Origin: Saururus chinensis
Taxonomy: Eukaryota; Streptophyta; Magnoliopsida; Piperales; Saururaceae
Reading direction: 5' to 3'
Assembly (NCBI GenBank): GCA_035235625.1
Contig: CP141147.1
Coordinates: 28,936,756-29,000,755, forward strand
DNA length: 64,000 bases
Shown: in pieces, positions 2,016 through 62,180 of the stretch
Position numbering within the stretch: position 1 is the stretch's first letter
How the letters are laid out: each line of letters starts with the position of its first letter
Program-made: the position numbers and the translations under genes
The notes under the pieces: generated by a model
The model's input: only the letters and a program-made list of their open reading frames with translations
Databases searched by the model: none
What the model was told of the DNA's origin: nothing

Positions 2016-5000
2016 TTGCTGCAGTTAGTGATGGATTAAAAGCATGGGAAACACTCAAGGAAAAAGGAAAGTATATTGACCTTGTTTTGACTGAAGTGGA
2101 ACTTCCCAGCATCTCCGGCTTTTGTCTTCTTACCATGATAATGGAACACGAGTTTTGCAAAAATATTCCTGTTATAAGTATGTTCTAATTTCCATCAACT
2201 GTTTGTTCACTTTCAAAGTTTATGATTCGTATCTAAAATCTGTTCCAAACTGCTTATGTTGCTCATTATTGGATTCAGTGATGTCATCACAAGACTCTGC
2301 AAGTGTAGTCTTTAAGTGCATGTTGAGAGGTGCTGCAGATTTTCTCTCCAAGCCCATTAGGAAGAATGAACTCAGGAACTTATGGCAGCATGTTTGGAGA
2401 CGGCAATCTGTATGTATCTATATTGGATTTTTGAACTATCATACTTCTTTGGGTTTGTTAAAGAATTCTGAAATTAGACTGTATGAATTATCTTTGTGCA
2501 GTCTACGGGTGCTAGGCATGCAGAACAAGATGGGAACCATCCACAAAGAACACTGGACTCCACTTCTGAGAATAATACTGCAAGTATCCATTCAATCAAT
2601 GATGTCGTGAATGTACAGAAATTTAGAGAATCTGCTGAGAAAGGAAGCGATACCCAAGTAAGTGATCTGTTTCTTTCAGTATCTTGTTAAGAAGCAGTAA
2701 CATGTGTTGACTTTTTTATTTCTAAAGTGAATATATGTAGAATTATTAAAATTTCCTGCAAAGAGCAGTCTTGAAATGAGAGCTTGAATACGTTTGTGTT
2801 TTTATGGAGTTTTCTTTTTCACGTGGTGTGCAGGGTAGCTGGTCTTTTGGAATAGATTCCTAATTTCACATTTGCAAGTGAATCTTTTTTTTTTCTTTTT
2901 TTTTTTTGAAAAATCATAAGAAATTAATGTTGGTGCGCTTTCTTTCCAAGACAACAACAGTACTGGGTAGTTCTGGCTGTTAATGGCCAGACTTACTGAC
3001 AAGTGACTGGTTTCAATTGACGATACTAGGGCCTCCTCTTTTCTTTCTTCTCCCTTCCGCTGATCTTTCCTTCCCCCATGTATATATGGAGTAGAGGAAA
3101 ATTCTACATGCAAGACAGTGGGTGCTACATTTGTAGTGACATTCATTAGACTCAGGTTCTCTGTAAGTAGAATGTTGGCTGCCTACTCAGGTCCTGGGGG
3201 ATGGTCGTCAGCTGGCTTCAGTATAGTTGGTCTAGGAATATCCTGCTGGGTTGACTGCCTTGCTTTTGGATCGGCCAGCTGCTCTTTTGTTCGGTTGGAG
3301 TCATGTGAGTGGGTGTCAACTGGATACTGTTTGACATTGTAAATTCTCATCTGGGTGTAAGTCATGGGAGGTTGATAGATTTCTACAGTAGTTTGACCGG
3401 ATCAATTGTAAACCTTCCATATTCAAGGTACAATAGGTTGACTGGGTCCTTAACATATCTTTCTAACAACAGATTTAAGGGGTTGATGCTCCCCTATTTA
3501 AGGAGTTGACAGGCTCCCCTATTTTAGGGTGTTAACAAACCACTCTATATAGCGGTCTACTGGCCTTGTGCATTGGCCAACAGTGACTCCAGTCTTCAAA
3601 TTAAGTGCACTAATGAAAAAATGTGCCACAATTTTGTGTCATTTCATATCTGATGCTTAAACACATATCTTAAACCACCAATTCTTAGTAGATAATAAAT
3701 AAACCTTGATGAATGCACTAGTCTATTATTTGACCTAATGCAATCCAAATTCACTTGTCATCATCAGAATCTTGAAATTGCTGTGGATTATCAACAATTA
3801 CACGGTCAATAACATTTTACATGGCCGTGGAAACCGCAGATGCTTCTAATGAATGGAGCTTTTAAGTTCCTAACTAGCGAAGACAAAGAGTATATGCAAG
3901 TGGAAGGGTCAGCAAAAACCCATGACCGACCTTTGGCCCAGTTTGCATCTTACATCAATTTCTTTGATCTTTGATAAACATTCTCTATATAATTTTTTTT
4001 TGTCTTGGTTCTTGATAAGTAGCAAAATGTCTAGTTAAAAGTAATTCTTAGAATACACCTATCTTCTGCCTAGTAAGGCCTTTGGTATGTGTTGTTCACT
4101 GTGAGAACAATAAAACTTCTGAATATTTGATATGTCCGCTTCTGAAACTATGCTTGTGTAGTCAGCTAGTTCAGTGGAATGATTTACTAATTCACTCCAA
4201 TTTATGATTTTCATATTCCTATGAATTGATTCCATTAATCAAAGCTAGCTACAGAAGCTGAACATTTCCTTATAAATGTTGGACAACAGAAAGTGCATAC
4301 AAAGAGTTGGAAGTCATTCCTAACAGACAATAAAGATGACGCATCAAAAGGAGATAGAGATGCGAAATCTGTCAGCTCAGCACCAGTGAATAATGGTGCA
4401 AATGAAGGTAGAAAATTATTGCTGTTCTTTTTGTGTATTCTTTTAATTTTTAGCTTTTGTGATAGCACAATCAGTGCATGAACTAGGGTTCATATTTCTG
4501 CAGATAAATCAAGAAGATTGATTGTGGAAATGTCCCTTTATAACGAAGCAATTGGCTCCATTGGGGTAGAAGAAAAATCATTTTACAAAAATATATCATG
4601 TGATAATAATGCAAAAATAGTAGATCCTTGTAAGGAGTCACATGACTTGATTGGAAGAATAGAAAATCAGCCAAAGTTTCATAACCAGCACAATGGCCCT
4701 AGTTTTACTGGTGGTGGTGAAGATGCAGAAAGTCCTGTTGGTGCAAAATTAGATGACATCTGCACTTCAACTTCTTCACCACTTCTTGAACTTTCTTTGA
4801 GAAGCTCTCCACCACAAGGCTGTGAAAAGCGTGAGAATGAGGAAAGGAACACCTTGTACCATTCCAATGCTTCCGCCTTTTCCTGGTCAGTGCTCGATTA
4901 TCCACCCTTCAATAAATGTGACAAGTATTTTAGTCATTTCAGCAGTTAATTCACCCTAAGTTGTCAATGTGCAGGTACAGTAACAATATAGGGAAGCAAA

Positions 5001-6325
5001 ATATCCTGCCATCTAGTGATAGCAGTACTAAACTAAGAGTAAGTACTGTTAATTGTCAGCTGTATGTGCCAAACCAACTTGCTCATGATGCTGTGGGGAG
5101 CCCTCAAGTTGGATTTATTCCTATCCCTTACCATCTTGGAGGCTCAGGCTTTGATGGTTTTTCTTCTGGATATGGAGCTCTAGTGCAGCCCATGTTTTAT
5201 GGACAGCCAGGTCCACCATTCTGGACTATGCATTCAGCCAGGCAACAGGATGGAGTTAATTATAGTTCATCAATTCAGTCTGGTCAGGAAACTCATGGCT
5301 ATGACCAGAGTAAGTGGCTGCATGATCAAACTGCGAGTAATATTGATATGCCTATTCTGGATCAAAATGTAAACACCATTAAGGAGGTCATTTCTGGTGT
5401 AAGTGGAGATAACATCTTGTATGATGGGAGTAAAACCCTTCTTAGTAGCAATGGGTGTGAGACTGATGGAAGTAATGTGAACTCCATCATTGCTGTAGCT
5501 GCTGCTGATGGTAAGACTGAAGAGGAGCATTATGAAAATAACCTTGCTGGGGGTGCTGATTTGAGGAAGTCTTCTCAAAGAGTGGAAGCATTGACCAAAT
5601 TTAGATTGAAGAGGAAGGATCGTTGCTTTGATAAGAAGGTACTGCTGAAGCATGCTCCATAATTTTAGTTAATTATCAACAACTATGACAAGGATGACAA
5701 AGATTAAAGAAGCAGATGAGTAATAATTATAATAACTGTCATAGTTGTTGCTGCCATCATCATCATCATTGTTATTTACTATTACTACTTTCTTAACTAT
5801 GGTGCTTTATTATAATTGCCAGCGAAAAATCTTTACAATTGACATGTCAAGTTTTCTATATAAATGTCATTTAGATGGATGAAAGATAGCATACTCATTT
5901 AGATATATTAAAGATAGTAGACTGACGTGGTCATGTATGAGACATAAAGTCAATCAGTCTGTTGGCCATGCACCATAAAGGAGTTCCTCGTTAGAAGGGG
6001 ATTAAAAACACAAGAAAATCGATTTGATAAGTCTTTTGTATTCTGAATGCAAGCACGTACAAGATATGAAACACAAGTACAGCAGCAGCCCAGTTTCTGT
6101 CTTAAAATTTCTAAACCAAAGAAGTTGTTTAAAGATGTACTTGAAGTTTTAAATGTTGTACAGGGTACTAGATAAGATTTGAGATTATCACTTTAATATT
6201 TTATGATCACTCAGCTACCTTGTGATATATAATTACAGGTGCGGTATCAAAGTAGAAAAAGGCTCGCAGAACAGCGTCCACGGGTAAAAGGACAATTTGT
6301 TCGTCAAGTGCAGTATGATTCTTGA
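2016..6325 (+). CDS. PRR5: Pseudo-response regulator, PRR5/PRR95 type (5' partial, one inner exon unresolved)
   Basis: Clock-associated transcriptional repressor of the nucleus. Visible exons: 2016-2177, 2279-2409, 2502-2657, about 4255-4407, 4504-4885, 4975-5638 and 6239-6325 (stop TGA). The first two give the second half of a receiver domain. It has LVLTEVELP, where the phospho-accepting Asp is Glu as in all PRRs, then [10 protein letters not shown] and the conserved [14 protein letters not shown]. The middle is low-complexity, with the clade signatures LLELSLR and NASAFSW. The last two exons make the CCT motif ([13 protein letters not shown], then [19 protein letters not shown]), split by an intron after FDKK as usual. 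FIPIP, SGYGAL and PMFY in the long exon favour PRR5/PRR95 over PRR7/PRR37. The exon ending at 2657 is phase 0 but the one at 4255 needs phase 1, so an exon of length 3n+1 should lie between; I could not place it. The first exon lies upstream of the window. Confidence 0.9.
2658..4254 (+). other. PRR intron region holding an unresolved exon
   Basis: AT-rich stretch between two confident PRR exons. Members of this clade have a conserved segment after 'SDAQ' (often starting SSCT) that I do not see. After a plausible acceptor at about 2833 the frame reads GSWSFGIDS and then stops. A 30-codon open stretch near 3837-3975 has no family resemblance. Either a diverged exon is hidden here or that part of the protein has been lost. 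Confidence 0.45.
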
Positions 6326-16114: not shown

Positions 16115-16160
16115 TTGACCTCTCTCTCTCTCTCTCTCTCTAAATACACACACTATAAAC
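16115..16160 (+). promoter_or_regulatory. Core promoter: W-box, CT tract and TATA box
   Basis: TTGACC at 16115-16120 is a W-box core (WRKY site). A CT microsatellite runs 16120-16141, a pyrimidine patch common near plant start sites. TATAAA lies at 16154-16159, 44 bp before the ATG at 16203, which leaves a very short leader. WRKY control would fit a defence-type NDR1/HIN1-like gene, but that is inference. Confidence 0.55.
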
Positions 16161-16202
16161 CTCTGTACTCCCTCCCAACAACACGACCACAAGCAACGAA
16201 AA

Positions 16203-16838
16203 ATGGCAGAAGACCCCATTGCCCAAAAACAATCAAGCAAGAAGATGGCTGCAGTTCACTCCCCGTTCTCTCTTCGTCGTCTAGTCTTGACCACCATCGC
16301 CATCTTCCTGCTCCTCGCCGGTGTAGCCACCCTACTAGTCTGGCTTGTCTACCATCCCACTGCCCCAAGCTTCGTTGTCGTCGGTGCCGCCATCTTCGAC
16401 GTGAACTCCACCTCCTCCAACGTGATTTCCACCACCATGCAGTTTACCGTGGCTGCACACAACCCCAACAGGCGAGTCTCTATATACTATGACCACTTGA
16501 CAGCTTATGTTACATATAAGAACGAGGCCATCACCCCGCCGTTGCCCCTGCCGCCACTGTTCCATGGCCACCGGAGCACGGTGGCTATGGCCCCGACGCT
16601 TGGAGGAGTGCTGGTGCCGGTGTCACAGGAGGCGGCGACCGGGCTGGTGAGGGACCAGGCTTATGGGGTGGTGGGCCTCAGGTTTGTGCTGCTAGGGAGG
16701 CTCAGATGGAAAGCTGGGGCCATCAAGAGTGGGAGATATGGAATTTATGTGAGATGTGATGTGTTGGTTGGTATCAAGAAAGGGCATGCAGGCCGAGTCC
16801 CTTTGTTTGGAAATCCTGATTGTAGTGTAGAGATCTAA
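16203..16838 (+). CDS. NDR1/HIN1-like (LEA_2 domain) membrane protein
   Basis: A 211-residue intronless gene. The family is plasma-membrane anchored; members act in pathogen and senescence responses. A basic N-terminus (residues 1-26) precedes one hydrophobic segment at about 27-50 (TTIAIFLLLAGVATLLVWLV). The LEA_2 domain follows, with the family motif NPNRRVSIYYD near residues 88-98 and LRWKAG near 173-178. Length is normal for the family. The start is the first ATG after the TATA box, in an AAA-ATGG context. The first half is GC-rich compared with its surroundings. A paralogue lies 28 kb away at 44374. The exact subfamily is not certain. Confidence 0.9.
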   Translation: MAEDPIAQKQSSKKMAAVHSPFSLRRLVLTTIAIFLLLAGVATLLVWLVYHPTAPSFVVVGAAIFDVNSTSSNVISTTMQFTVAAHNPNRRVSIYYDHLTAYVTYKNEAITPPLPLPPLFHGHRSTVAMAPTLGGVLVPVSQEAATGLVRDQAYGVVGLRFVLLGRLRWKAGAIKSGRYGIYVRCDVLVGIKKGHAGRVPLFGNPDCSVEI

Positions 16839-17134
16839 GTGTTTCAATTGTTAACTTGTACAACTAGTATGACTTGGGAGTGCTGATTTTTCAGTGTCAT
16901 TCATCAAGTGAAGATGTAGCAGGGCGTGATGAACCTGTTCAGATTGTAGAAGAAAAAGGGTGTTAGTATACACTGAATGGTTTGTAGTATAGAGAAAATT
17001 AAGTCTTTCAATTCTTACTTTGTGGCTAAATTGCAATGTAAACATTCAATAATTAACTAAAAAGAAGCACGGGGATGGCTATAAAAGGCTTCTTTATCTG
17101 CACTTTCTATGAACATCTTCTGCCTTCCTGTATA

Positions 17135-17268
17135 CTCTCTCCGTTCCCTAGTAAGTGCCTGAATTAAAAAACTAAAATGAACTCTCTTCGTCCGAATTAG
17201 AAGACCAAAATGAACTGATTAATCTTTTTGGCTTTCTAATCTAAATACTTAATTACGGATGGAGGGAG
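17135..17268. mobile_element. Stowaway-like MITE
   Basis: 134 bp flanked by TA. The left end is CTCTCTCCGTTCC and the right end, reverse complemented, is CTCCCTCCATCC. An internal 'ctctcttcgtccgaattag' at about 17182 repeats the end motif, so it may be a dimeric copy. Confidence 0.65.
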
Positions 17269-17663
17269 TATACAACACCCATCAAGGAAACTTTCGATCC
17301 TGCAACCCACACATTAATGGGATGAGCCTCTGAGACCTGTTGCCTAAGATTTGTGCCTGTCCATTGTTGAGTCATAGGACCAGCGAGCATAACAGAGAAG
17401 CCAGGCCTTGAGGTTCATACATGGTGCTTTTTGTTTTTGATAATTAAATACCCAAAATGGCTAATTACTCCAGAATGCCATTCAATTATTAGATACTCCT
17501 CCAGACATTTTTTAAGACTCTAAAAGCACTCCTATGTACATGGATACACTCCCGATAGTTACAGCTCAATAGTCTATCCTCTGCTCTTCTTCCCATCCTT
17601 GTTCGTTGTCGAAGCCCATTATCAACATCTTCATGGCTTTTCAAACTAGCATCAAGACTAAGG

Positions 17664-17992
17664 GGCTGTTTGCTAGCTAATTACCCTTTATTCCGTGGAC
17701 TCCGACATGATTCCGCAAGTTTATGTCAAAATCGTGTTTATATGCGAAAGTTCAAAAGAAAAAAAATTTATATTCCATTCAATCGAATGCTTCATTTTAG
17801 GCAAATTTGCAAATCTTCTCGCAAAACATTCCGCCTACTCCATCAATTCCACCTTTCTTTAGTCAATTTTCACCACTATGTACCCATATCGTTCCATCCC
17901 ACATAATTGGTGCATTCGGCTACAGAACGTAATTCTAATCCTGTTCAATTTCATTGAATATACATTTTGATCAATTTGATATCCAAACAGCC
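17664..17992. mobile_element. hAT-like MITE with GGCTGTTTG ends
   Basis: About 330 bp. The left end is GGCTGTTTGCTAGCTAATT and the right end, reverse complemented, is GGCTGTTTGGATATCAAATT. The flanking octamers gactaagg and aataaagg match only in part. No coding capacity. Confidence 0.5.
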
Positions 17993-18108
17993 AATAAAGG
18001 AGCTTCAACAAAAATATATGAAGGAAAAGAAAAATACAATAATAAGGAACAAACTCGAACTCTCTTTTCTAATGCGATGTCTCTCCCCAATGCCTCATCA
18101 ATATATTA

Positions 18109-18883
18109 CTCCCTACATCCTATTTTAATAGCTCCAATATAAAAAAAATATCGTTCTATATAAATTGCTCTATTTGTACAATTTAAGCTGTTAGATACTG
18201 ATGAGCTTCTCACATAGCTTCTGCAAAGACAATCGAGCGGAACTGCCTTGATCAAGCTCCTCCACATCACGGCGGTTGGGACATGCAAACAGACGAGTAC
18301 AAAAATAGGGGATCGCTTGGCCAATTTCACGAAGACCTTGAATTCACCATTTGTGTTCGAGGAAATCATTGTGTCGGACATAGAGGACTCGAAGGAGGAC
18401 AAGTTCAAAGCACTGAAAGCTGGCGAGCCTGCAGTGGTCTATGCGTCACTGGTATTTAGGACCATGCTGGACAGGCCCAATTGCTTGGAGAATCTGATGA
18501 GGACCATCAGAATGCTCTACCCCTGCATCATGATGGTGACGGAGGTGGACAACAACCAAAACTTGTTGTCGTTAAGCAACGGATTCATCAAGGCGCTCAC
18601 AAGTCATAGAGTGAGGCAATTCTGTACCTTGCCGGAACTCGGGCGTAGGCACCGCAACATCTTCTACTTAGTCATAGAGTGGAAAGAGCGAACTGTTTTG
18701 AAGGAAATGTAGATGGCGGGGGAAAGAGGAAGAGACAACGGGGAAGAAGGATAAGATGGGAACCGGGGCCGGAAAGTGATCGCAATATGGGGAGTTTTAT
18801 TATGCTAGTAGTTACGTGAGACTTATTATTAGATAAAAATAATAAAAAAGAGAAATATAGCTATTAATACAAGACGGAAAGAG
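18109..18883 (+). mobile_element. Stowaway-like element carrying a GRAS gene fragment
   Basis: A 775-bp unit flanked by TA on both sides (18107-18108, 18884-18885). The left end CTCCCTACATCC...TTAATAGCT and the right end (reverse complement) CTCTTTCCGTCT...TTAATAGCT pair at 18 of 25 positions, including an unbroken 9-base block TTAATAGCT. The same TIR type recurs at 45983, 62490 and 12490. Instead of the usual 80-260 bp hairpin the interior holds about 480 bp of GRAS coding sequence (18218-18712). Transduplication of a host gene fragment is well known for Pack-MULEs, rare for Stowaway. An independent insertion next to the fragment is the alternative. Confidence 0.55.
18218..18712 (+). pseudogene. 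GRAS-domain transcription factor fragment
   Basis: An open frame of about 164 codons without its own start. It reads LLHITAVGTCKQ, then GDRLANF, NSPFVFEEI, and KAGEPAVVYASLVFRTM followed by RPNCLENLMR. These match the PFYRE and following region of GRAS proteins of the DELLA-like RGL type ('LKITAVG..KQ', 'GEAVAVYAPLVLRTMISRPDCLENLMR'). After FIKAL the match jumps to a short RNIFYLVIEWKERTV piece, so part of the C-terminal region is missing, and the VHIID and SAW parts are absent. It sits inside TA-flanked inverted ends. Function as a protein is unlikely, but an siRNA or regulatory effect on a parent gene is possible. Confidence 0.7.
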
Positions 18884-19363
18884 TATTAATTTTATTCCAT
18901 TTGAATGAGGGTCAAGGCCATTTTGGTCCTAGCATTAGCACACAATGCTATTATCAGGGCCTCCAACTTATAGTATTACTAAGGTAATTTTGAAAACTTC
19001 GAGAATTTTTTTTTTCTAATTAATCACAACTGTTTTCTATCAAACAATCACCCTTTATTCTTCAGCAATTTTTATGCATAGTTACAATCCAAAAATATTT
19101 ACTATTTTCAGCTCTTTATAAAATATAATAGCAAAAGGACTGCATCTGGGCTTATTCCTTAAAATGGCCCAATTTCAGCCACGAGCATAGTTTATAGTTA
19201 GTTTAAGCACATTCTGAAGAGAAGCAAGATGAGCCGGCAGGATCCCATCTGTTCGTTTATTTCAGTATTAAAACATCTGGAATTCATGCGTCTTGTATGG
19301 GCTGCTCTTCTATGGCCTTCTGCAATGACAACGAAAGCATAAAGGAAAAGACGAGGGCAATTG
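18884..19363. other. Spacer and 3' flank of the AnPRT gene
   Basis: AT-rich; the part next to 19364 is probably the 3' UTR of the minus-strand gene. Nothing else seen. Confidence 0.45.
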
Positions 19364-22300
19364 TTAGCTCAGAACGAATGTTTTACCGAAAACAGTGGGC
19401 ATGCTTTCGCTTACATTTGAGATGTGAATCCATGAATCAAGTGTTCCAATTGCCTTCCCAGATAGATGTGTTTCACGTGCCAAGGCTACTCCTTCACCAA
19501 GACTGCCTACACTTCCACTAACTAAAAGTGCTGCTGCAGCATTCAAAATCTGACAAAAAGGAGAATCCACGAAAAGTCAAAAATATGGGCAAATAGGGAA
19601 CTGGGGTCAAGATCCTCAAGTTTGGCTATCTTTGTGTGTGTGTGTGTGTGTCTGTGTCTGATAGAGAGAGCATTAAGTTTGTTGTAGTTTTGCACGCCTT
19701 GATGGATTCCTATCACAGAAAGAGGATCAAGAAGCAGCAGTGCAAAATAAAGTTACTGAATAAGGCAACTCACAAGTGCATCTGCAATTGCTCCTTTCTC
19801 ACCCGCGAGGACATTCCTAAGAACTTTTGCATTATAAGGTGGATCACCCCCTTTCAAGTTCTCCAAAGAGCAGCGAGAAATGCCGAAGTCCACTGAACAA
19901 AACTCATGTTATGTCAATGACACTCATAAGAGGAACACTAAGTTCTTGTCAAAGTGACTTAATAAAAAAGAGGATAAGTAAATATACTTGGGTCAAAGGG
20001 AAATTTTTCAATGCTATCCGGAGTGACATCAAGAACCATTCCAGGCCCTTTCAAGGAAAAACACAGGAAATGCATGTATTAATTACCAAACTTTATATTT
20101 AGCCACATAAGGAGTTCACAAATTTAAAAACATCTATCTACTCATAATAACTGAATTTTATATAATTCCTGAGGAGAGTGATAAAATTTGGGATTTTGAG
20201 GAAAAAGAAAAACACTTTATTCAATAGAGATAGCCTCCAATAGGCATTAGGTCATCCATTACAGAATATTACCATACTGCCCATCCCTTGAAGAAGGCTC
20301 AGCAAATAAGAAAACAAGACAAATTATATTGACTAAACTACCCCTCTATAATGTAAAGCCTACTACTAAGGACTTAAACAATAGAACACGAATGTATACT
20401 CTAACAGAGAGGAGTTAAGAAAACAGCAAGACAAGTTTACTAACCAAGAGGACTCATTTCATCTAAACCTTCTGAATGAACTACCAGAGCCCTTTTCATG
20501 CCAAATCTTTGCAGTGCCTTTGCCATTTTCACAACCTATGAGAGCAGTCATTCATTTTAGTTCATAAAAATAAAAAAGAGAACATGTCAATTAACTAGCC
20601 ATCACCAGGGCATCTAAAACGAGACCAACAGAGCAAAAAATCACAGTTACTCTTCTTTCACGATAATAATAAATTATACAGTTACATGCACCCTAATGTT
20701 GTAGAATGTTGTAGGAATCTACACAATGAGACTAAAACACATAAAGACTGGTACTTCCTGTCAATATAGCTGGCAGTACTTGTCTTTTATATATTTAAGA
20801 TAATCCTGATATAAAATAATTACTCTTAAAATTAAGTCGATTATGGACTTACAAATTTAAAATAATTTTTCACTTTTTAGCAGCTGACATAACCTTTATA
20901 TATATAGATAGTTTTTGGATGAGGAGTCTACCACCTCCTCTTTTCGCCAGACTACCCCCTTAACACGGTCAGGTTATATCCACTATGTATTATATCCAGA
21001 CAGTGGATACCTATGGACTGTGTAAAGGCGGGGTGGGCTGGCTAAAACAGAGGGTTGCAGACTCCTCACCCATAGTTTCTATATGTTACACGCAATCAAA
21101 GATTCGCCTATTCCCTAGCAGGTATCTGCATGACTTGATTCTCAAGGTTATAAGGGGAGGTAAGTGTTTAATTGCACAGTCGTCCCATTTCCCACACATA
21201 AGAACCACTCACCCAAGGTTTTAAAAAACTAGAAGAAAAAAGGTACTCCTCCTTCCTGCAATACATGTCCGATTTGAACAAAACAATTGCCCTGCAATAA
21301 ATGTCTGATTTGACATTTTGAAGGATCTGTCACATGCTAGCTTTCTCAAAATGAATTAATCGTTCATTCCAGAAATGACAGAAGTCATGCCATCTGTCAC
21401 AGCTCATAACTCCTTATCTACAGACAAGCCAAAGTTCACCCGCATGTCGCATGACTTACATATAAAGTTTTTTTGGAATTCAGACACTTAAAGTGGGAAG
21501 GAGGGAGTATATCAGAGCACTACTGAAAGCGTAGTCATGAAGGTGGCGCTGGATGGATATAACAAACTCGAAATTCGTCATCAGTTGAACCTCACCTTGC
21601 ACTCATTATTATCATCATTCACCATACTTTCGTCTAGGAAAAGTGACTTGAGTTCTGCCCCACCATTTGTTTCTTCTAAAAGTTGTGCCTTCAAATCCTG
21701 TCACCAACTCAACCTACTGTTTTCCAATACTCTCCTCACACACCCTCTACAGTTTCTCAGCAATAGCTCCTTATAGGTGCCATCAATATCCTTCTTTACA
21801 AATATTAACAGCATCAACTTATTCATACATCAAAACATAAATGATTAATAATTATGTTGCTTAAGAAAGGTACTTACTAGATTCTCATGGTAGACACCCA
21901 CAACAGCAAAAGGTACCCGTGCTGGGTTCAACATAGGACCCAAGATATTGAACACCGTCTTCACTTTAAGCTTTTTCCTCACCGGGGCAACAATTTTCAT
22001 AGCAGGGTGGTATACAGGAGACATCATAAAGCCAATACCAGTTTCCTGTACGCAGTGTCTTACTTCCTAATGTTTAAACAAGAGAAAGAAATTAATAGTT
22101 AACATTTTTTTACCAGAAAATACTTTAAAAATAAATCAATCCTGCAATATCTAGAAAAGAGGGATAACCTTAGTGTCAAGTAACAATCTTCAAAAAGAAA
22201 ATTCAAAGAAAAGAAAACGAAAGAGAAAAATAAAAATAAAAAACATTGAGGCAAGAAATCCAGTGTCTTTTATACAGATACAGAAAACCTAACTCTCAAA

Positions 22301-40200: not shown

Positions 40201-42776
40201 CTCCCCAATGCACATGTTATCCTATGAAACACCGACTATCTTCCTGTATCTGACGTGGAGGATTTGGGAGCAGGTCCATTGGATTCCATTATTGTTTTCT
40301 GAAGAGTCTAATGTAAACTGCTTCTTCCAGTCATTTCCACAGTAAAAAATAGCAGTATTTGGACCAGCAGCCAAATTTGTCGGAAATAAACATGTTAACT
40401 CCTTGTAGTGATTAGTGATATAGGCTGAGATGGACATGATGCATGCACCCATTTTCTATGTTCCTCTTTTAATCCCATCTGGTTCACATCCGTTAATTTA
40501 ACATTGGGAAAGGTAGCGGGAGGATTCCTGTGTGATACCAATCATACATTGTAAAATATCATTGTCATGAACACCTTATCTCATTTCTGCTTTTATTTTT
40601 GTTTTAATACCACGATTTACCCCCAACTATAAATACAGTCTAAATTATCTTTGTTGTCTCATCACATACTCTTTGTTCATCTATTTCTAACACCTGCTTT
40701 ATGGCTGATCGTGATGATAGGATGCTCCTAGGAACAACTGCTTTTTTTTATCTGCAATGTTAACAAACTTGTTTCGCTCTGCATTCTTATTTGCTTTTCT
40801 TTTGGTTTTTATGATAGAGATGGCAGTTTACCTGTTTCATTCATCAGAAAGTACCTCGTAAAGAAACTGGATCTTACAAGTGAAGATGAGGTACGAAATT
40901 TTTCTGTCAGTTGGAAAATAAGTAGAAGCTTATGAAGACTGTTTTAATGTGTTAACTAAAGATATGGAAATGAGGTTTGGACTTTTTGCTTGCATGTTTT
41001 AGTAAGCCTCCCAAGCATGTTTTATGAGCTGTTTTCCATATACATCCCAAGTGAAACCTGTTGTGAAGAAGAGAGGAGAAAGATATGGCTTGGCTTTTTA
41101 TTCTTCAAGAATACACTTTTTTACCCTATACTATTTTGTGAAAGTTCTATTAATGTTAATTGGTCCAAAAACTTCAAGCAGTCAGAGTGCACCCACAATT
41201 TGAGGGAAAATGTCAATTATACCATTGAAATTTAGTTTTCTTTATGTGCGCTCTGAGTAGAATCTTATTACATTTTATACCCTTATTTCAACTTTAATAT
41301 CAGTTCTATGCTTAGTCGATCTGTCTAGTCCTTTTAATGAAAACATGTCAGTTCTAAAATCGGAAAATGATCCTGTTAATTGTATTCTAAGAATGATTTG
41401 GTAACATGAAAATTGGTGAATATTGTGATGCAACTGGCAATAATCCGCGGGTAAATATGAGTGCAATCTTTGACTAGGGGCATTATTGAACTAAATTTGC
41501 AATAAGAGGTGGACTATTATAAATTTTTTTGACGGGTGCATTTGGAAATAGTTTAACTCTGTGGTGCTAATGATATTTTCCTTTCAAAAATGGATAAGTT
41601 GCCACGGTGTCTTCCACTGTATACTCTGTATTTTGTTTGCTTAACACCAAAGTGTGAGCCAACACCATCATTAAGGGAAATTAAATTTTGGATGAATTAC
41701 TATTTTATTTACAACTGGTGCAAATAGGTTGTAAAGTATGAGTCTCATCCAATATTTTTGGTTTGCCCCAACTTTGACACTAGTTACAGCTACTGCATAT
41801 GTGCTCCTTACAATTTCCCATAGCTGCTAATACTCCTCATCCAACACACCAACGGTAAGTAGGAAGCTTTATTAATACTACGTTCGTCTTATTATAAGCG
41901 TCTTATAATTAGTTCATTTTGAAACCAAATAGGACACTTATTATGGGACGGAGGGAGTATTTTGAATATGCTGGAACTTTTGTCCTAAACAGTCTCTGGC
42001 TGATACAATTGGTTCAGTCATCATGTTATAAATGTTTCATCATAAGCTGAAAAAGGGAAAATTAATTTAGTATTAAGTGATGGATAGAAAGTGAGAAGGG
42101 GCGGCTAGAAAAAAAATTATGGTTCAATAAAAAGATATAATTAATTTAAACTGCCCAAGTTTTAAATACTGATTTAGTTGGAGACACAGTCGTTACCTGA
42201 ACTTGACCACTCGGTTGAGCTATTTGGTGATCACCTTAGGCAGTCCATTTTTTAAATTGTGAACACTGGCTTTTACACCCCTGTGTTGTACAATGATCAA
42301 TTCAAGTGATGAAAGTTTTTATCCAATTAAAGTGTCTAGTTCTGTAGTCTACATGTTTCCCTGGATCTTCCTGATGTTCTTTGTATCCAGACTTCCACAA
42401 GATGGTTGTAAATTATTAGCATCATAGCAAATAATTGTATTTAAGGGCATATCAATCGTTATTTTCCCTTAAATTTTATTTTCTCAGGCTCAAGTGCTTG
42501 CATTATTTCTGCACGATTGTTTAATTGCTCGAATATTTTGTCATTATTGATTTTCTAGTGGACCTGTGTCTATGACTAACATACGTGCTTCTTACTCAAT
42601 AGGTGGAAATAACATGTCAAGGGCAGCAAGTGGAACCCGCGTTGACCTTGCACAACCTGGTAGATGTATGGCTGCAAACTGCTCCAACATCAAAAAGGGT
42701 AGCGGCATCTGTGGGCACCTCAGCCAAAGACTTCGTCATGGTGCTGACCTATTCTAGAACGTCTCATGCCTCTTGA
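34300..42776 (+). CDS. DRIP2: RING-type E3 ubiquitin ligase of the DRIP family (seven exons)
   Basis: Nuclear E3 ligase; the Arabidopsis DRIP1/DRIP2 proteins ubiquitinate DREB2A and restrain drought responses. Exons: 34300-34414, 36227-36326, 37143-37476, 37740-38152, 38760-38810, 40818-40890, 42603-42776. They sum to 1,260 nt, 419 residues plus TGA, almost exactly the length of DRIP2. The C3HC4 RING at residues 19-66 (CPLC, ECLHTFCRKC, CCPIC) spans exons 1-2. RPDHNLQDVRAKIFPLKRRK, next, is the DRIP/PcG-RING signature. The middle is Lys- and Ser-rich with likely nuclear signals. The C-terminal RAWUL-like part reads PQISASYLRIK, SFIRKYLVKKLDL, VEITCQGQ and DFVMVLTY. The start is the ATG giving MAGQVVKVRRELL. 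Intron 1 is 1.8 kb; intron 6 holds a Stowaway-like MITE at 41878. Confidence 0.95.
41878..41957. mobile_element. Stowaway-like MITE in DRIP intron 6
   Basis: 80 bp flanked by TA. The right end, reverse complemented, is CTCCCTCCGTCCCATAATAA, the classic form; the left is CTACGTTCGTCTTATTATAA. Confidence 0.75.
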
Positions 42777-44309
42777 CACATTAATATCGTGTCTTCTAAT
42801 AACCAATAATGTAATATGCGAGACAGTTCTCCATGTGCGGTATTGAAGATTCTTAGATGTATACAATGTAGGCTATATCCAATTTCATAGCATGTTGTCT
42901 CATTATAATGTTCTACTGACCAGTTTGCAGAGTGCACTTGAGCCATGAACATTACCATTTAGTCTCCTGAGTGTGTTTGTACCAATAGGAAACAAATTTC
43001 TTTTTATAGTTTTTAATAAATTTAATTTTCAGTTAAGTGCACTTGTATAGTTATAAGTGTAAAACTGTGTGGATTGGTACCAGGTAAACCTAAGTGCTGT
43101 ACCTTATAAAAGAACTCTGGCTTGAAGTCTTGTTCTCAAGGAACCACTTCCCCAACGCATGGCCAGTTCCTACGCGGTTGTTTTGTTTCTTTTCTTTTGG
43201 GTAAGGCAGTTCTTACGCGTTTTGAAAATAACGCATCTAAACTGACTGGCTCTCGTAGGGCTTTGAACATATAGTACATAGAGGGCAACTCGTTATTTAT
43301 AAATAACTGTTATCTTATGTACTATGTTCGGAGCCCTATAGGCTGGTGTCTATTTGAAAAGCCACTGCTAGAGGCAGACATCGAAACTGCATGATCACAG
43401 CTTTTATGTTGATAATGGTTCAAGGAGATTCCCTATTCTGCTTTTGGTTTCCTTTCTGGACAAATAAGAAAGAAAAGCAGGCATGACCCATCTTGAAAAC
43501 TTATATTAAACGTTTAAATGTCCAGACAATAGCTTAATGACCCAAAAAATCATAAGCTTGTCCTTCCCTTATCCCAGCACGCTTCTATGTCTTCATTTCC
43601 TCTTGTTTTCCTTTTCCATTCTAGAAACCTTATCTCCTGCCAGTTGCTGGTGAGAGGACGCCACTTTTTCCTACTTTTCTAGTCTATCTCTCCCATCTTG
43701 GTAAAGCCTAGCCATGGTACTCGCTTGTTGGTACTTCACTTTCCACTCCATTGTTCCAAAGGCCAATCAACTCTTATTCAGGCTCAGAATTCAGATATCC
43801 CTGTATCCCACCGTATAAACCCTCCTGAATCCGGCTATATTAGCATCTCCCCTGGAGTATCTTCTCATTCTCGAGAGTATGATAAACTCAGGCATTTATT
43901 CAACATACTACATACTTGTCCACCATTTTCTTTCGTATCAGTTTTTCTAAGCAAACAAGGACAACCACACTGAGAAGGCTACCACACACTAGGAATCTAC
44001 TGTGGCAGAAAAACATCTTCTCTCGGGACCCAGACTAGAGGATGCTGCAAGCAAGATTTTTGTCTTCATGCGCTAGCTATCCTCGCTGCTGTCTCCTCAT
44101 GTGTATCGCTTCTCTTAAAGCTAGCAATTCTCTGCATCACTGATGACATGCAAAATCAGTGAAGCACTTGGCATGCAATAATCACCTTTTAGGGTGAGAC
44201 GGCCCACTTAGAGCTTCCAGTCAAAAGCTACCCTGCAACATGATTGCAGCTTTGTGCATAACTCAATCCCTTTCTATCTGTTTAACTTAGCCTAGTCTCC
44301 TTCCTCTTC
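42777..44309. other. DRIP 3' UTR, spacer and promoter of the second NDR1/HIN1-like gene
   Basis: No gene seen. It contains an imperfect hairpin at about 43236-43356 (listed separately). The sequence just before 44310 is presumably promoter. Confidence 0.45.
43236..43356. repeat. Imperfect inverted repeat (hairpin)
   Basis: Core 43257-43337: the left arm agggctttgaacatatagta pairs with the right arm, which reverse complemented reads agggctccgaacatagtac. Between them is the palindrome gttatttataaataac. Similarity continues outward for about 20 bases on each side. It is either a small MITE or a hairpin RNA source. Confidence 0.5.
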
Positions 44310-44317
44310 TTTATATT
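44310..44317 (+). promoter_or_regulatory. TATA-like box of the second NDR1/HIN1-like gene
   Basis: TTTATATT lies only 9-16 bases before the ATG at 44326, too near for transcription to start upstream of it. It is about 57-64 bases before the in-frame ATG at 44374. This argues that 44374 is the real start. Confidence 0.45.
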
Positions 44318-44373
44318 CACTTCGTATGTCCCTCTCATTCACCACATATCCAACACACCAGCCTTGCCTGCAA

Positions 44374-45006
44374 ATGTCTCAACTCCTTATAAGCTCTCCC
44401 AAACACTGCGCCAAGCACGGACCTGACGTAGATAAGCTCTACAAGAGACTAGCCTACATCTTTTCCACCATTGTCCTCTTTGTTCTCTTCATCGTCTTCC
44501 TTGTTTGGATCATCCTGCGCCCTTCCAAGCCCCAGTTCTCTCTCAAGGAGGCTAACATCTACCAGCTTGATCTTGCAGGGTCCCACCTCCTCAACTCCTC
44601 CATACAGGTCACTCTGGTTTCCAAGAACCCTAACAACAGGGTTGGTGTGTACTATGACCAGCTTCGAGCCTATGCTTCCTACAAGGGCCAACAGATAACC
44701 GAAGACGTTTCTTTGCCTGCTTTCTACCAAGGGCACGAGGACACTAACCTTATATCGGCATCGCTGGCCGGAAATTGGGTCCCCGTCGCCGCCTCCTTCG
44801 GCTATGAGGTTAGCCGAGATCAGACGTCCGGGAAGATGCTGCTGAGCCTCAAGTTGAATGGCAAGCTTCGGTGGAAAGTGGGCACTTGGTCCTCCTCTCA
44901 ATACCATTTTAATGTGGATTGTGTTGCAGCTATGGAATTGGGTCCAAACTCTGTGCTCACTCCCCTTAGTACTAAGCAAGGCGCTCAGTGTTCTACTAGT
45001 GTTTGA
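44374..45006 (+). CDS. NDR1/HIN1-like (LEA_2 domain) membrane protein, second copy
   Basis: A 210-residue intronless gene; a longer frame from 44326 adds 16 residues but starts too close to the TATA-like box. The N-terminus has KHCAKHG, typical of NHL proteins, then a basic DKLYKRL and one membrane segment at about 30-51 (STIVLFVLFIVFLVWIIL). The LEA_2 domain follows, with NPNNRVGVYYDQLRAYASYK near residues 86-105 and KLRWKVG near 170. The family sits at the plasma membrane and members are induced in defence and senescence. It is a diverged paralogue of the gene at 16203; the two share the NPN-R-YYD block and the RWK-G block but differ greatly elsewhere. Confidence 0.92.
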   Translation: MSQLLISSPKHCAKHGPDVDKLYKRLAYIFSTIVLFVLFIVFLVWIILRPSKPQFSLKEANIYQLDLAGSHLLNSSIQVTLVSKNPNNRVGVYYDQLRAYASYKGQQITEDVSLPAFYQGHEDTNLISASLAGNWVPVAASFGYEVSRDQTSGKMLLSLKLNGKLRWKVGTWSSSQYHFNVDCVAAMELGPNSVLTPLSTKQGAQCSTSV

Positions 45007-45982
45007 TCATTAAGAAAGGTCTTTAAGAGTGTCTGTTACTTGTATATATATTGCTTTGCTTTCATGCTGTGCAATGCCCCTAAGGCTTATCAGCGGGCAA
45101 TATGTTTTATTACTAGAACTATGTCTGATAAGTAGCTAGGTTTGTTCGTCCTTCTAAGTTTGTGCACGGTAGCATTAAGATAGAACTACTTTGTAACAGC
45201 TATGTCCTTTTAGCTGTGTTTATAATGTGAAAAGGAGATATGAGTTTTTTGCATAGAAACTCTAATTTACACCTAATACGCCTAAAGTATCTTATTTAAA
45301 ACTGGGTAAAATTGTTAAAATTGAAGCATAATTTATGCTAATCAAACTCAAAATCTCTGGAGTGCATCAGGTACATTTTGCATGTGCACTTCTCCTAATT
45401 GTATATATAAGAGCATTGGTAAAACTATCATATATTGGCGCATGTGGCCAGCATGAGCGCAAGCATTGAGAGCTATCGTATCTTGTCATGACAATGCACG
45501 CTAATAGAAAAGTAGGAGGGTGATTCAAACCCACTTGCCCCGAGTAAGATGTGTCGTCAAATTGAAATCCGACGGCCCACGTTTGAGCTAGGGTTCTATT
45601 TCGAAAGGATTGAGGATGAGAATCTTAACTTTGTAACTTTGAGATAAAGAGATGGGAGTCTATGATCATGAGATTCTTGGTGATGGGAAAACAAAAGAGG
45701 CGGGAAGTGCAGCTGCTTTCATACGGAATCTTCATATTTACATGTCACTCAGAGCTTTTATGGGGCCCTCTCTAAACACCTTTCTTTTGTTGTTAATGGA
45801 GCTAAATATAGATTAAAGGCTAATTTAAAAAGTAAACATTAAATATATCATGATAACTAAAACAATTCTCGCGGATTCATCCTGCAGAATCATTCAACAG
45901 CATTGGAAGAAAAATCAGACATATTGGAAGAAAGTAACCCACTAGATTCACCCATTTCCTAGTTGGGAATTTTCTTATTATA
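45007..45982. other. 3' flank of the NDR1/HIN1-like gene and spacer
   Basis: The first 200 bases are likely 3' UTR; nothing else recognised. Confidence 0.45.
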
Positions 45983-46070
45983 CTGCTTCTGTCCCACATT
46001 AATAGTTATATTTAATTTTTTAAAATAAATTAAAATTAAAGAGAACTATTAATGTGGGACAGAGGGAATG
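45983..46070. mobile_element. Stowaway-like MITE, near-perfect hairpin
   Basis: 88 bp flanked by TA (45981-45982, 46071-46072). The left half ctgcttctgtcccacattaa pairs with the right half, which reverse complemented reads cattccctctgtcccacatt. The arms meet at ttttttaaaataaatt. It looks like the least decayed copy in the window. Confidence 0.8.
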
Positions 46071-56409: not shown

Positions 56410-56773
56410 ATAATAGTTAAAAATGTTCAAATTATATGTAGCCAATGGCCATGCTTAATATTAAATTTCTCTATAAAATTGATAAAATTATACTTCTTTT
56501 GTCCTCAATCAATAGTTATATTTATTTTTTAAAATAAACTAAAATTAATTTATCTTAAACTTAATTTATCCTTTTAATATTGAGTATAACTTAATATTAA
56601 AAGGATGAAACATTTGTTTTAAGTAATACGCCGTGACATTAAAATACGATGATACGTTGGCGCACGTCCTGCAAAATGCGCTCTGCGCTCTTCAAATTAT
56701 ACGTAGCCCATGGCCATGCCGAATCTTAAACCCCTCTATGAACCCCGTGAAATAATGCCAACTCCGCTGCTCG
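56410..56773 (+). promoter_or_regulatory. PPR 5' flank with a duplicated segment
   Basis: The segment just upstream of the PPR start (56691-56757, 'ttcaaattata', 'gtagccc', 'atggccatgc') recurs at 56426-56492 in the same direction with about three quarters identity. Between them from 56493 is the left half of a Stowaway-like element (cttcttttgtcctcaatcaa, then tagttatattta). No TATA box was identified with confidence. Confidence 0.55.
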
Positions 56774-58948
56774 ATGCTCCGCCTCCGGCACCGGCTAGCT
56801 TTGCCCTCCTCCCCGCTCCACCGCCCCATGCTCCTCCACTCCTCCGACACGCTGAGCCCGCCTAACCTGGTCGAGGGCGAGGACGACGACGACCCAGAGC
56901 CGGAGCAACCGGGCCAACCCCGGAAGAGAAACAAAAAGCGCACCACCACTTCCTCCAAAACAGCCCGGACCCTTGCCCGGCTCATCGACTCCCATCCCCG
57001 GTGGTCCGAACGCCTGGAGTCCGCCCTCTCTGCCTCCTCCTCTGCCGGACCCCTCTCCAAAACCGCCATCGTCCAGACCCTCCGCCTCATCAAATCCCCC
57101 GCCCGGTCCCTCTTCTTCTTCCGATGGGCCCGTTCCCGCCCTGACTTCCTACACCACTCTGACATCTACGCCACCGTCCTCCGCGTCCTCATCCGCGCCC
57201 GCCGCCTCGACGCCGCCCGCAACGTCCTCCTCTCCGCTGCCGCCCCGCTCGGTGACGACCGCCTTTACAACCGCCTCGTCCTGGCCTACGGACGCGCCGG
57301 CCTCCTTGACGAAGCCGTCCACCTCTTCCAGCAGATGAAGTCGGCGGGCGTCAGGCCCTCCGTCGTCTCCTTCAATACTCTCTTCTCCGTCCTCCTCCGC
57401 CGCGGACGGACCCAGATGGCCACGCAGCTCTACCGCGAAATGTGCGACGAGGGAAGCTCGGCGAGGCCGGACGTCTACACCTTCAACATCCTCATCAGGG
57501 GGTTCTGCCTGAGCTCCATGGTGGAGGAGGGATTCCGGTTCTTCAAGGAAATGTTGCGGTTTAGGTGCTCCCCGGACGTGGTTACGTACAACACGCTCGT
57601 CGACGGGCTCTGCCGCGCCGGGAAGGTGAGAATTGGGCAAAATCTGGTAAAGGGTATGCTCAAGAAAGGCCCGGAGTTGCATCCCAATGTGATAACCTAC
57701 ACTACTCTGATCAGGGGTTTCTGCGGGAAGCGGATGGTTGCAGATGCATTGGCGCTTTTGGATGAGATGGTCTCCGGCGGGCTTCGGCCGAATGCAATAA
57801 CGTACAATACACTCATCCGGGGCCTCTCCGAGGCAGGGGATTTGGACAAGGTGAAGGAGATATTGGAGGGGAGTGGGGGATTTCAACCAGATACATGCAC
57901 ATTCAACACGCTGATGAGTGCTCACTGCAATGCTGGGAACTTGGGGGAAGCGTTGAAGATGTTTGAGAAAATGTCTGAGTTGCAGGTGCATTCAGATTCT
58001 GCAACGTACAGTGTTTTGATTCGAAGTTTGTGTCAGGTGGAGGACTTTGAGAAGGCAGAAGAGCTCTTGGAGGAGCTGTTGGAGAAGAGGGTTCTGCGCC
58101 GACATGATGCGTGTGTTCCTCTTGTTGCAGCGTATAATCCTATGTTTGAGCATTTGTGTAGGGTGGGGAAGACGAAGAAGGCTGAGAAAGTGTTTCGGGA
58201 GCTGATGATGAGTGGATTGCAGGATCCGCCTGCATTCAAGACGCTCATCATGGGGCACTGTAAGGAAGGTGCATTTCAGGATGGCCACCGGCTTTTGTTG
58301 CTAATGCTGAGGAGGGGATTTGTGCCAGATATGGAAATATTTGGTACTCTGATTAATGGGTTTTTGGGACAGAGAGATTCAAGTGTTGCTTACAGGGTTT
58401 TAGAGAAAGCAATAAAGAGTGGACACAAACCAGGAACTGCGACTTTCCACTCAGTACTTGATAGACTTGGAAAAGATGATTGTGCACAAGAAGCTGCAAG
58501 TCTTATCATGGTGATGGTAGAAAGAAGAGTTCGGCAAAACATCAATCTGTCGACAAATGCTGTTGTCTGTCTATTTAAGAATAAGGTCAAAGATAGGGCA
58601 TTTGAGATTATTAGGTTACTGTATAAAAATGGGTACTTTGTAAAATTGGACAAGATAGCAGAGTTTCTTTGCCTAGAAGAAAGATTTTTATGGGCCAGAG
58701 AGCTTTTGCTTTTAAATTTGGAGGTGAAACAAGTATTGGACGGTGAAATTTATTGCAAGGTTGTAACAGGGCTTTGCAAACATCGGAAAATTATGGAAGG
58801 CTTCTCTCTTTTCTATCAAGCGGTTGATTCAGGGAACCAATTCCCCTTGAGTTGCTTGGAAATGTTGAAAGAGTCTCTTGAGGCAGGTCAAAGACTGAAA
58901 GAAGCAGAATTCATATCTAAACATATAGTTAGGAGGCGTCAAGAGTAA
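56774..58948 (+). CDS. Pentatricopeptide repeat protein, P class (At1g02060-like)
   Basis: A 724-residue intronless gene. P-class PPR proteins bind organelle RNA and take part in splicing, stability or translation. The N-terminus (residues 1-25, rich in Arg, Leu and Ser) looks like an organelle targeting peptide, and an acidic DDDDPEPE then basic KRNKKRTT stretch follows. About a dozen PPR motifs run from about residue 130, with clear VVSFNTL, DVYTFNILIRGFC, DVVTYNTLVDGLCRAGK, NVITYTTLIRGFC and NAITYNTLIRGL helices. The C-terminal part (CRVGKTKKAEKVFREL, PPAFKTLIMGHCKEG, RQNINLST) resembles Arabidopsis At1g02060. No E, DYW or SMR domain. The first kilobase is very GC-rich, the last third close to AT-rich. 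The start is the first ATG of the frame. Confidence 0.93.
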   Translation: MLRLRHRLALPSSPLHRPMLLHSSDTLSPPNLVEGEDDDDPEPEQPGQPRKRNKKRTTTSSKTARTLARLIDSHPRWSERLESALSASSSAGPLSKTAIVQTLRLIKSPARSLFFFRWARSRPDFLHHSDIYATVLRVLIRARRLDAARNVLLSAAAPLGDDRLYNRLVLAYGRAGLLDEAVHLFQQMKSAGVRPSVVSFNTLFSVLLRRGRTQMATQLYREMCDEGSSARPDVYTFNILIRGFCLSSMVEEGFRFFKEMLRFRCSPDVVTYNTLVDGLCRAGKVRIGQNLVKGMLKKGPELHPNVITYTTLIRGFCGKRMVADALALLDEMVSGGLRPNAITYNTLIRGLSEAGDLDKVKEILEGSGGFQPDTCTFNTLMSAHCNAGNLGEALKMFEKMSELQVHSDSATYSVLIRSLCQVEDFEKAEELLEELLEKRVLRRHDACVPLVAAYNPMFEHLCRVGKTKKAEKVFRELMMSGLQDPPAFKTLIMGHCKEGAFQDGHRLLLLMLRRGFVPDMEIFGTLINGFLGQRDSSVAYRVLEKAIKSGHKPGTATFHSVLDRLGKDDCAQEAASLIMVMVERRVRQNINLSTNAVVCLFKNKVKDRAFEIIRLLYKNGYFVKLDKIAEFLCLEERFLWARELLLLNLEVKQVLDGEIYCKVVTGLCKHRKIMEGFSLFYQAVDSGNQFPLSCLEMLKESLEAGQRLKEAEFISKHIVRRRQE

Positions 58949-60524
58949 TAAACAGCTTTTCGACAGCTTCATTCGTCATGCACAGGGGTCTATGTTGTCA
59001 AATGTTAACCTCACTGTGGTTAAACCTTTGGAAGCTCGTTTCTTCGCTATCTGAATGATCACTTAAAACTTTAAGTCAAACATTTGCCGAGACTTAGAAG
59101 TTGCTATTATGATTGTTGATTTAGGAAGTGATGCTCTATAATAGGCTAACCAGGGAATTGTACCTCTATTCATGATCAGTAAGTAACCTTCCCTTGAATT
59201 TCTGTTTTTTTTTTTAACCCTTTCAGGAAGTTCTCTTGCAAACTGCCTGCCGACTCATGTTGTGAAATTATTTTGCAAGTTTTGGGACAGTGATACTGCA
59301 ACTCACTCTATCATGTTGCTTGGTGTCTTCGAACAATTCTACATCAAAGCAAGAATCTTTGTAGTAAAGTGCTAATAAGGCGAAAGGAAAATTAGCAGTG
59401 AAGGCATCAAATACGTTAGCGTTACCCACATTGTTACTGGTTGGACTGCCAATTTAACACGTTTGTTCTTCCATGTATTCATTTTCTTTTTGGGCTAATG
59501 CCTGATGGTGCAGGGTTCACGATTTGTGGATCGTGGATGACTGGGTTCCCATATTGTTGAATGCTTGTAGGCATCTAAATGCTGCAAGCTGACTCATGTT
59601 GCTTGCTGTCTCATCTAAATGCTGCCTGCTGACTCATGTTGTGAAGATATATAGTAATTTCGCGGACAATGGTACTGGAACTCACTCCATCATGTTACTT
59701 GGTGTCTTCTAAATTAAGTTTTGTAGTAATTCTTCATCAAAGCAAAAATTTCAGTAGTGATGTGCTAACAAGGCGAACGAAAAATTAGCATTAATGCAAG
59801 GCGTCAATTACTTTAGTGTTGGCCACATGGTTACTGGTTGGATTGCCCAATTTATTACGTTTGTTCTTCCCAGTATTCATTTTCTTTTGGGCTGATGGTG
59901 CAGGTTTCTGGATTTGTGGATCGTGGGTGTCCATAGTGTTGAATGCTTGTACGCATCTAAATCCTGCAAGCTCACTTTTGATCAAAAGAAACTTCGTGCA
60001 TGTTACGCACATATGAAAAGTCCAGCATCGTCAATATCATCTGCGTCTCATCACCGCAACAAGGATCTTATGTCATCGTTTGATTTTGTCGTCATGATTT
60101 ATGTATCAAGTGACCTTATTTTTTGTAGCCTAACTTTGTGTCGGAAGTAGTATAGTCACGTTTGCCTCCCATGTTGATGATGATGACCTTTCTTTGGAGA
60201 GTTGCTTCAGGAAGGAAAGTCGTCTAAAGCTGTAACACTTTGGCTTCGCTAGATTGTATATTAAGAGCTGCTAACTTGAGTAACACGCATCATTGGATCG
60301 AAATCCAACAGTCCATCATGCTTGGCTCACATGGTCGTGCATGATCATAGGCCCATATTGAGGGTATCATTTTGTATATATCATAGCACCTATGAAAGTG
60401 GAAGAGAACTACGGCACTCTGATACAAAACTAAAATTAGAACTTTCTAATTCCGTTGCAAACTTAATTTTTAGATAAAAAAATCAATTTGTTTCATTGGT
60501 AAGCAACATTAGTGGACATCTCAT
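58949..60524 (+). other. PPR 3' flank with a tandem duplication
   Basis: Contains two tandem copies of about 380 bp (listed separately). No second gene seen. The rest is AT-rich up to the assembly gap. Confidence 0.5.
59242..59975 (+). repeat. Tandem duplication of about 380 bp
   Basis: Copy 1 is 59242-59621 and copy 2 is 59622 to about 59975. Shared in order: gactcatgttgtgaa, 'aactcactc-atcatgtt', 'cttggtgtcttc', 'catcaaagcaa', 'acgtttgttcttcc', 'gattgtggatcgtgg'-type text and 'gttgaatgcttgta-gcatct'. They are roughly 80% alike. It is probably non-coding sequence behind the PPR gene. Confidence 0.75.
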
Positions 60525-61524: not shown

Positions 61525-62180
61525 TCTATGCATATTTAGTCTAAATGAAATGAATCCAATGCCAACAATGACTTAAATTGTCAAAAAATAATAATTTGTA
61601 ACTATATATATTTTTATTTGTATTCTATTATAAGAGGAATTTAAATAAGGTATCCCAATAATAAGAGAAAAGTCAAGTAAAAAAACAAATAAGTATATAG
61701 TACTACAAATACATATATAAGAAGTTATTAATGTTGTTTAGACTTTCATATCAAATTAACTTGGTATATTTAGCTTGGCTCAGGTAGAAAGTTATCAAAG
61801 GTTATTTTGTACAATGCACCCATCAGTAAGCTTAACTTGTACTTAAATAGCTAGCATCATGTCTTTGGGAGATTGTTAGTATACAATCTATCTATAGTAC
61901 CAAAGTTTTCAACAGCTAAGGTGGGAGCCAATTTTTCCACCTTAGCTTTGTGGACCCTTCCGAAGAAGCAACGTCTCTATTTCTAGTTCCGACTTTTCTA
62001 TTGTATTGATTGTGCATTATTCTCTGTCATTTTTAGTCCCAAGTCTATTATAAAAAAGGCTGGAGAGGAGATTCCGCCAAGAAATTACTAAGAGCCAAAC
62101 AAGGATAAAGACCGCAACAAACCAACCTTAATAAGTAGCATTTTCGCTCATAGTGCTGTTCAAGAAACAAACAAGCAGAA
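61525..62180 (+). other. Spacer and promoter of the subtilase gene
   Basis: AT-rich to about 61900; nearer the ATG it is likely promoter and leader ('gacttttctattgtattgat' to 'aacaagcagaa'). No TATA box was fixed with confidence. Confidence 0.4.

Follow-up and report, generated by a model that had tools for sequence, protein, structure and literature searches.

The locus at 18109-18883 of the window (the whole stretch of 64,000 nucleotides of Saururus chinensis DNA analysed here) raises the question of whether two TA-flanked ends belong to a single transposon, and whether that transposon has taken up part of a host GRAS gene. A preliminary description of the locus had proposed that the two ends form one element around captured GRAS sequence, and this has been borne out by an empty TA site, by related elements and by the parent gene. 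The locus as a whole is very probably explained as a non-autonomous Tc1/mariner element, a Pack-Mariner, whose family has repeatedly taken up coding fragments, perhaps by template switching.

Boundaries and terminal repeats

The element occupies 18109-18883 exactly (775 bp; C8:28954864-28955638) with TA on either side, and the coordinates first proposed were correct to the base. The 5' boundary reads TA-CTCCCTACATCC... from 18107, and the 3' boundary ...GACGGAAAGAG-TA up to 18885. The terminal features are listed below (C and L numbers denote contigs and loci of the genome).

18107..18108, left target-site duplication TA; a single TA at the empty site, C8:29233048
18109..18136, + strand, left terminal inverted repeat CTCCCTACATCCTATTTTAATAGCTCCA; 25/28 to the family consensus
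18109..18214 (about 106 bp), + strand, left terminal region common to the end family; 81.6-87.8% to L021, L022 and L024
18790..18883 (about 94 bp), + strand, right terminal region common to the end family; 84.6-88% to L010, L020 and L026
18856..18883, - strand, right terminal inverted repeat; 22/28 to the family consensus
18884..18885, right target-site duplication TA; flanks aligned to the empty site

The TA duplication and the CTCCCTCCGTCC-type terminal inverted repeats are those of Tc1/mariner elements with Stowaway ends. Between its two ends only 19 of 28 positions are complementary, which counts against the Pack-Mariner explanation; this level was reached by 42 of 200000 pairs of 28-mers drawn at random in the window. 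The 25-base family pattern of the terminal inverted repeat has a single match in the window, the element itself, with 3 mismatches (0 of 100 shuffles). A MITE is short, has many near-identical copies and holds no gene; this element measures 775 bp, carries gene fragments and has one full-length genome match only in the DNA search.

The ends had been described as being of the same type as the short MITEs of the window. Stowaway-type ends are enriched there (8 matches to the 15-base core against 0.71 expected), but this core is all that they have in common with the element. Further short elements or lone ends of Stowaway type, at 17133-17270, 21495-21509, 41945-41959 and 45981-46070, show no match to the gene-capturing family. 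The sole other match to the family end sequence in the window is right-end-like (62640-62672, 91% over 33 bp), with no clear left partner in the window.

Several other features were found in the window. Open frames with an LEA_2 domain (Pfam PF03168) lie at 16119-16835 and 44296-45003, the element being about 1.3 kb downstream of the first. An open frame of 730 aa at 56756-58945 contains pentatricopeptide repeats, and another at 4934-5659 ends in a match to the CCT motif under the family cut-off. A run of N, possibly a gap, lies approximately at 60524-61525.

The empty site

The joined flanks of the element (17995-18108 plus 18886-19300) were searched against the genome (516 Mb, 11 contigs). 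Besides the flanks themselves one place was found, C8:29232929-29233488 (89%), on the same chromosome and 278 kb away, where the flanks meet at a single TA and the element is absent. This empty locus (L080, 451 bp) reads AATATAT-TA-TTAATTTT, and the window reads AATATAT-TA-[element]-TA-TTAATTTT. An empty TA site in a relative had been put forward as a check; an exact one thus exists within the same genome. It follows that ends and insert arrived as one transposon. That the captured DNA moves with the ends is also indicated by an interior junction in common with an element on C1. The GRAS fragment was not seen here without the ends, the related locus lacking ends and insert alike.

Just left of the element, a MITE that we take to be hAT-like occupies 17662-17992, with ends GGGGCTGTTTG and CAAACAGCC. 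Its right end is also present at the empty-site locus, so this MITE is older than that duplication.

Captured sequence

The interior of the element is a chimera of fragments from two unlinked and unrelated host genes, one on C1 and one on C5, arranged as follows.

18215..18251, 37-bp stretch; no match in the DNA search of the genome, although by eye the GRAS match might run a few bases in
18252..18598, + strand, GRAS gene fragment in sense, from C1:1623440-1623786
18599..18608, filler ACAAGTCATA, 10 bp, where 203 bp of GRAS sequence are deleted
18609..18628, + strand, second GRAS piece, 20 bp (L009 3991-4010), which ends a 162-bp GRAS piece in related elements
18624..18772, - strand, 5' end of the C5 gene, about 149 bp, antisense to GRAS (C5:11129826-11129973), with a PF12843 match
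18773..18789, joint from the C5-gene piece to the right terminal region, also present in related elements

The GRAS fragment matches its source on C1 over 347 bp at 90% (36 differences, E 8.4e-129), and its homology is recognised by Pfam (GRAS, E 1.1e-13). The parent that had been expected among the GRAS genes of the species is therefore found, and it is intact (about C1:1622326-1624137), with an open frame of 603 aa and a Pfam GRAS domain. The label DELLA-like is unsupported, the donor frame showing GRAS (PF03514) only and no DELLA domain. The GRAS coding sequence had been put at about 480 bp; it amounts to 347 plus 20 bp, and 18624-18772 is antisense 5' sequence of the other gene. The C5 donor also has an intact frame, of 333 aa from the first methionine, with a PF12843 match just above the family cut-off; that family is named after a bacterial factor, and the name is uninformative for the plant gene. 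In the filler region, the 12 bases 18602-18613 repeat 18670-18681. The 37 bp without an assigned source count against the Pack-Mariner explanation. Captured host coding DNA in a non-autonomous element is what defines the Pack-TYPE elements, and it is present here.

Related elements

L011 (C2), L012 (C9), L059 (C9), L060 (C1, containing L015) and others have interior sequence in common. A search for further copies with the same ends and a GRAS insert had been suggested. Such copies exist in L011 and L012, which contain a different part of this GRAS gene; the 347-bp piece itself was met, among the matches of the DNA search, only in the donor. The element L011, of about 1.67 kb, comprises pieces of four genes and of one unnamed open frame. 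It holds 162 bp of the GRAS gene found in the window element (94%), a piece of the same C5 gene, a UDP-glycosyltransferase piece (81% to the intact gene L070), a piece matching the open frame L071, which is without a Pfam hit, and an acyltransferase-family piece on the reverse strand, with its donor in a cluster on C1. The last is presumably BAHD, its Pfam name being 'Transferase'; the labels VPS8-like, MAX2-like, UGT72 and GUX-like used in this analysis are likewise assumed. At least 12 acyltransferase-like (PF02458) matches lie in C1:49158756-49615749, the source of this L011 fragment. Its capture from a spliced form was considered, as 737 bp of the donor are skipped; the donor is a single frame of 447 aa, and the gap is an internal deletion.

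The junction between the GRAS and C5-gene pieces is spanned by a 32-bp match (18609-18640, 91%) in L015 on C1. In the copies on C2, C9 and C11 the GRAS piece has the same end point (L009 4010-4012), followed by the C5-gene piece shortened at that side. Since the junction is common to an element on another chromosome, it was formed once in an ancestor and spread by transposition. In L058 (C3) the C5-gene piece comes with a longer stretch of its native flank and has no GRAS sequence beside it, so the pieces seem to have been added stepwise, in an order that we infer.

The breadth of capture was assessed with seven elements (L020-L026) chosen solely for matching the ends of the window element. 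Donors were searched for L021, L022, L024 and L026, with L020, L023 and L025 left out, and host gene sequence was found in all four. Matches of L021 lie on C6, C3 and C5, the place on C6 having a fasciclin domain. Those of L022 lie on C5, C11, C3 and C2. An ATP synthase B/B' domain was recognised at the C5 place; the C2 match, beside a left end of the family, is probably another element. In L024, open frames on C3 (85%) and C5 (90%) are matched, neither with a Pfam hit above cut-off. L026 has a single match, on C4, and a 61-aa frame of L026 matches the mitochondrial ribosomal protein mS35 (E 8e-11). The right end of L023 was not found in the stretch examined. Nine individual reading frames taken from the interiors of other elements had no Pfam matches; donors had to come from the DNA search.

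The end family in the genome

Across the genome, 226 places match the left-end pattern and 626 match that of the right end, sister families perhaps contributing to the latter; neither pattern finds a match when reversed. Pairing was done with 100 listed left ends of the 226 and 100 listed right ends of the 626, plus 9 from the element DNA search. For 24 of these 100 left ends a listed right end lies within 12 kb, always in the correct order and at a spacing of 0.92-2.56 kb; no listed ends are paired in the wrong order. The other 76 are without a listed right partner, as expected, most right ends not being among those listed. Inspected by eye, 7 of the 13 both-ended elements have a clean TA at both sides (the window element, L011, L012, L022, L024, L026 and L058), and in the remaining 6 one end is mutated or lost. 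The ends are 7.9 kb apart in L057 and 6.7 kb in L058. No transposase was recognised in the open frames of these two, one L058 frame resembling a retrotransposon integrase by eye, and they are taken as family copies into which other sequence has been inserted.

That a mariner transposase moves these elements is suggested by the ends together with the TA. A PF13358 profile search of the genome returned nothing, and a PF24964 search found 8 places. A search with the L074 protein found about 20 mariner-type places, of which one has an intact frame of 476 aa and the rest are partial or contain stops. The intact frame (L074 998-2425, C11:21957197-21958624) is mariner-transposase-like, with PF24964 and a weak match to a Tc3-type helix-turn-helix below cut-off. 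No family ends were found in its 4.6-kb stretch, and it may be a domesticated gene, the related copies elsewhere in the genome being incomplete or interrupted by stops. A relic on C1 with a family right end 4.4 kb away was rejected as the autonomous partner, no left end being found in the 6.1 kb fetched. An autonomous partner with family ends was thus not found, neither of the two transposase loci fetched being flanked by them; this counts against the Pack-Mariner explanation, and the presence of mariner transposase relics in the genome speaks for it.

Route of capture

The Pack-Mariner explanation would involve the following steps. A mariner transposase acting in trans would move the element, and fragments would enter during repair of the gap left by its excision. 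DNA synthesis would then jump between unlinked templates at short matches, leaving filler and internal deletions. At the one junction with filler, the repair polymerase may have copied neighbouring sequence before going back at a match of 5 bases. The junctions of the window element and of L011 have matches of 2-5 nt and one filler, a pattern that suggests template-switch capture without proving it, the junctions being few and read by eye after the fact.

Alternatively, two neighbouring insertions flanking a donor may have fused and moved as one, the process being repeated for each donor. Such fusion is the route proposed for Pack-TYPE elements, including cluster 217 of the rice Pack-Mariner elements, as given in the parts of PMC8903248 consulted. 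End-like matches are present at 3 of the 8 donor-type loci searched: the C5 donor (L014) has three degenerate family ends 300-750 bp from the captured part, L071 has one match and L064 one weak match (E 0.004). The fetched flanks of the other five (L009, L062, L063, L070 and L073) contain no family end at E 0.01, and the ends near donor loci are mixed evidence between the two routes. Fusion is nevertheless unlikely. The GRAS and C5 donors are still intact, the several unlinked donors within about 1.7 kb would require many rounds, and filler and short matches occur at the junctions examined. The filler and the 2-5 nt matches lean towards template switching during repair. The degenerate ends of family type that cluster next to the C5 donor gene (L014 2292-2723) may be relevant to how the C5-gene piece was acquired.

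Beyond the template-switch capture of these pieces, it can be proposed tentatively that the mariner end family is a general gene-shuffling machine, which would switch templates while the gaps left by its own excision are repaired, join fragments of unlinked genes in this way and leave intermediates behind. With the same reserve, such intermediates might be L058, where a C5-gene piece but no GRAS was found, the window element, whose GRAS piece is longer, and L011, which combines UGT, BAHD, GRAS and C5-gene pieces. If true, this would explain the uptake of unlinked genes by DNA transposons, for which a route is still missing.

Coding potential

An open frame in the insert had been noted, and one is present.

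18218..18712, + strand, open frame of 164 aa; GRAS read-through into the antisense C5-gene piece, not a gene

Since the frame extends into the antisense C5-gene piece, it is no evidence of a gene, and as a chimeric read-through it has little meaning. A function for the host, as an expressed chimeric protein or in regulating either parent gene (GRAS or C5) by antisense or small RNA, would agree with the open GRAS frame and the antisense C5 piece. It is improbable, though, given the comparison with the donor over 345 bp in frame (dN 0.10, dS 0.15, dN/dS 0.70), the distribution of changes by codon position (11/14/11), and simulations in which 55%, 41% and 31% of fragments stayed open by chance after 18, 27 and 36 random changes. 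The window element is most likely a decaying copy without protein function here.

Order of capture and insertion

An empty element might also have landed at this site and captured the GRAS piece in place, as the 347-bp piece is without a match except in the donor gene. The adjoining GRAS/C5-gene junction is also present in the C1 element, however, so at least that capture preceded landing, and capture in place is very improbable. Divergence does not put capture and insertion in order: the GRAS fragment differs from its donor at 36 of 347 positions and the flank from the empty site at 41 of 427 (MAFFT; Fisher p 0.72), the BLAST alignment of the flank giving 26 mismatches in 451 columns. That two independent Stowaway MITEs chance to flank a GRAS pseudogene, for which the further Stowaway-type ends in the window might speak, is refuted by the exact empty site, where ends and insert are jointly absent around a single TA, and is hardly conceivable given also the interior junction in common with C1 and an inverted-repeat search of 17800-19200 that found no other pair making either end a separate MITE.

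Comparison with known systems

Stowaway MITEs have a TA duplication and CTCCCTCCGTCC-type ends and are usually short and gene-free. The present family has the same duplication and type of ends, but the shortest of its 24 paired elements is 0.92 kb. Pack-MULEs are mosaics with Mutator ends and 9-bp duplications. They likewise hold host gene fragments between transposon ends, which in the present family are mariner ends with TA.

Few studies in the literature deal with gene capture by Stowaway/mariner elements. A grapevine survey of 2008 (PMC2528002) mentions, in the parts consulted, capture by MULEs and in the superfamilies present, and reports no Tc1/mariner element. Capture terms are absent from the consulted portion of a 2025 MITE review (PMC12595863), and 'mariner' and 'Stowaway' from the main text, as far as seen, of a 2026 review of plant gene capture (PMC13317346), where uptake of unlinked genes is said possibly to follow an alternative mechanism not yet discovered. 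Within the open-licence literature, 'Pack-Mariner' was met in PMC8903248 only, and titles and abstract openings name no other plant study of gene capture by mariner elements.

The view that such capture is rare for Stowaway/mariner elements does not hold in the strict sense, since Pack-Mariner elements of rice and maize are already published (Gisby and Catoni 2022, PMC8903248), with a model, in the sections consulted, in which two neighbouring insertions around donor DNA fuse. The window element is a Pack-Mariner and thus of an already known kind; what is new is the multi-donor family, the exact empty site and junctions suggesting template-switch capture. With its intact donors, exact empty site and apparent intermediates, this family would allow the route of capture to be tested at the junctions of some hundreds of copies in one genome. 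According to the parts of PMC8903248 consulted, the rice and maize elements resemble those described here in their Stowaway-type terminal inverted repeats, TA duplication, non-autonomous nature, captured gene DNA and few copies per cluster. The rice cluster carries one gene piece, whereas here a single end family has made many different captures and has left an exact empty site.
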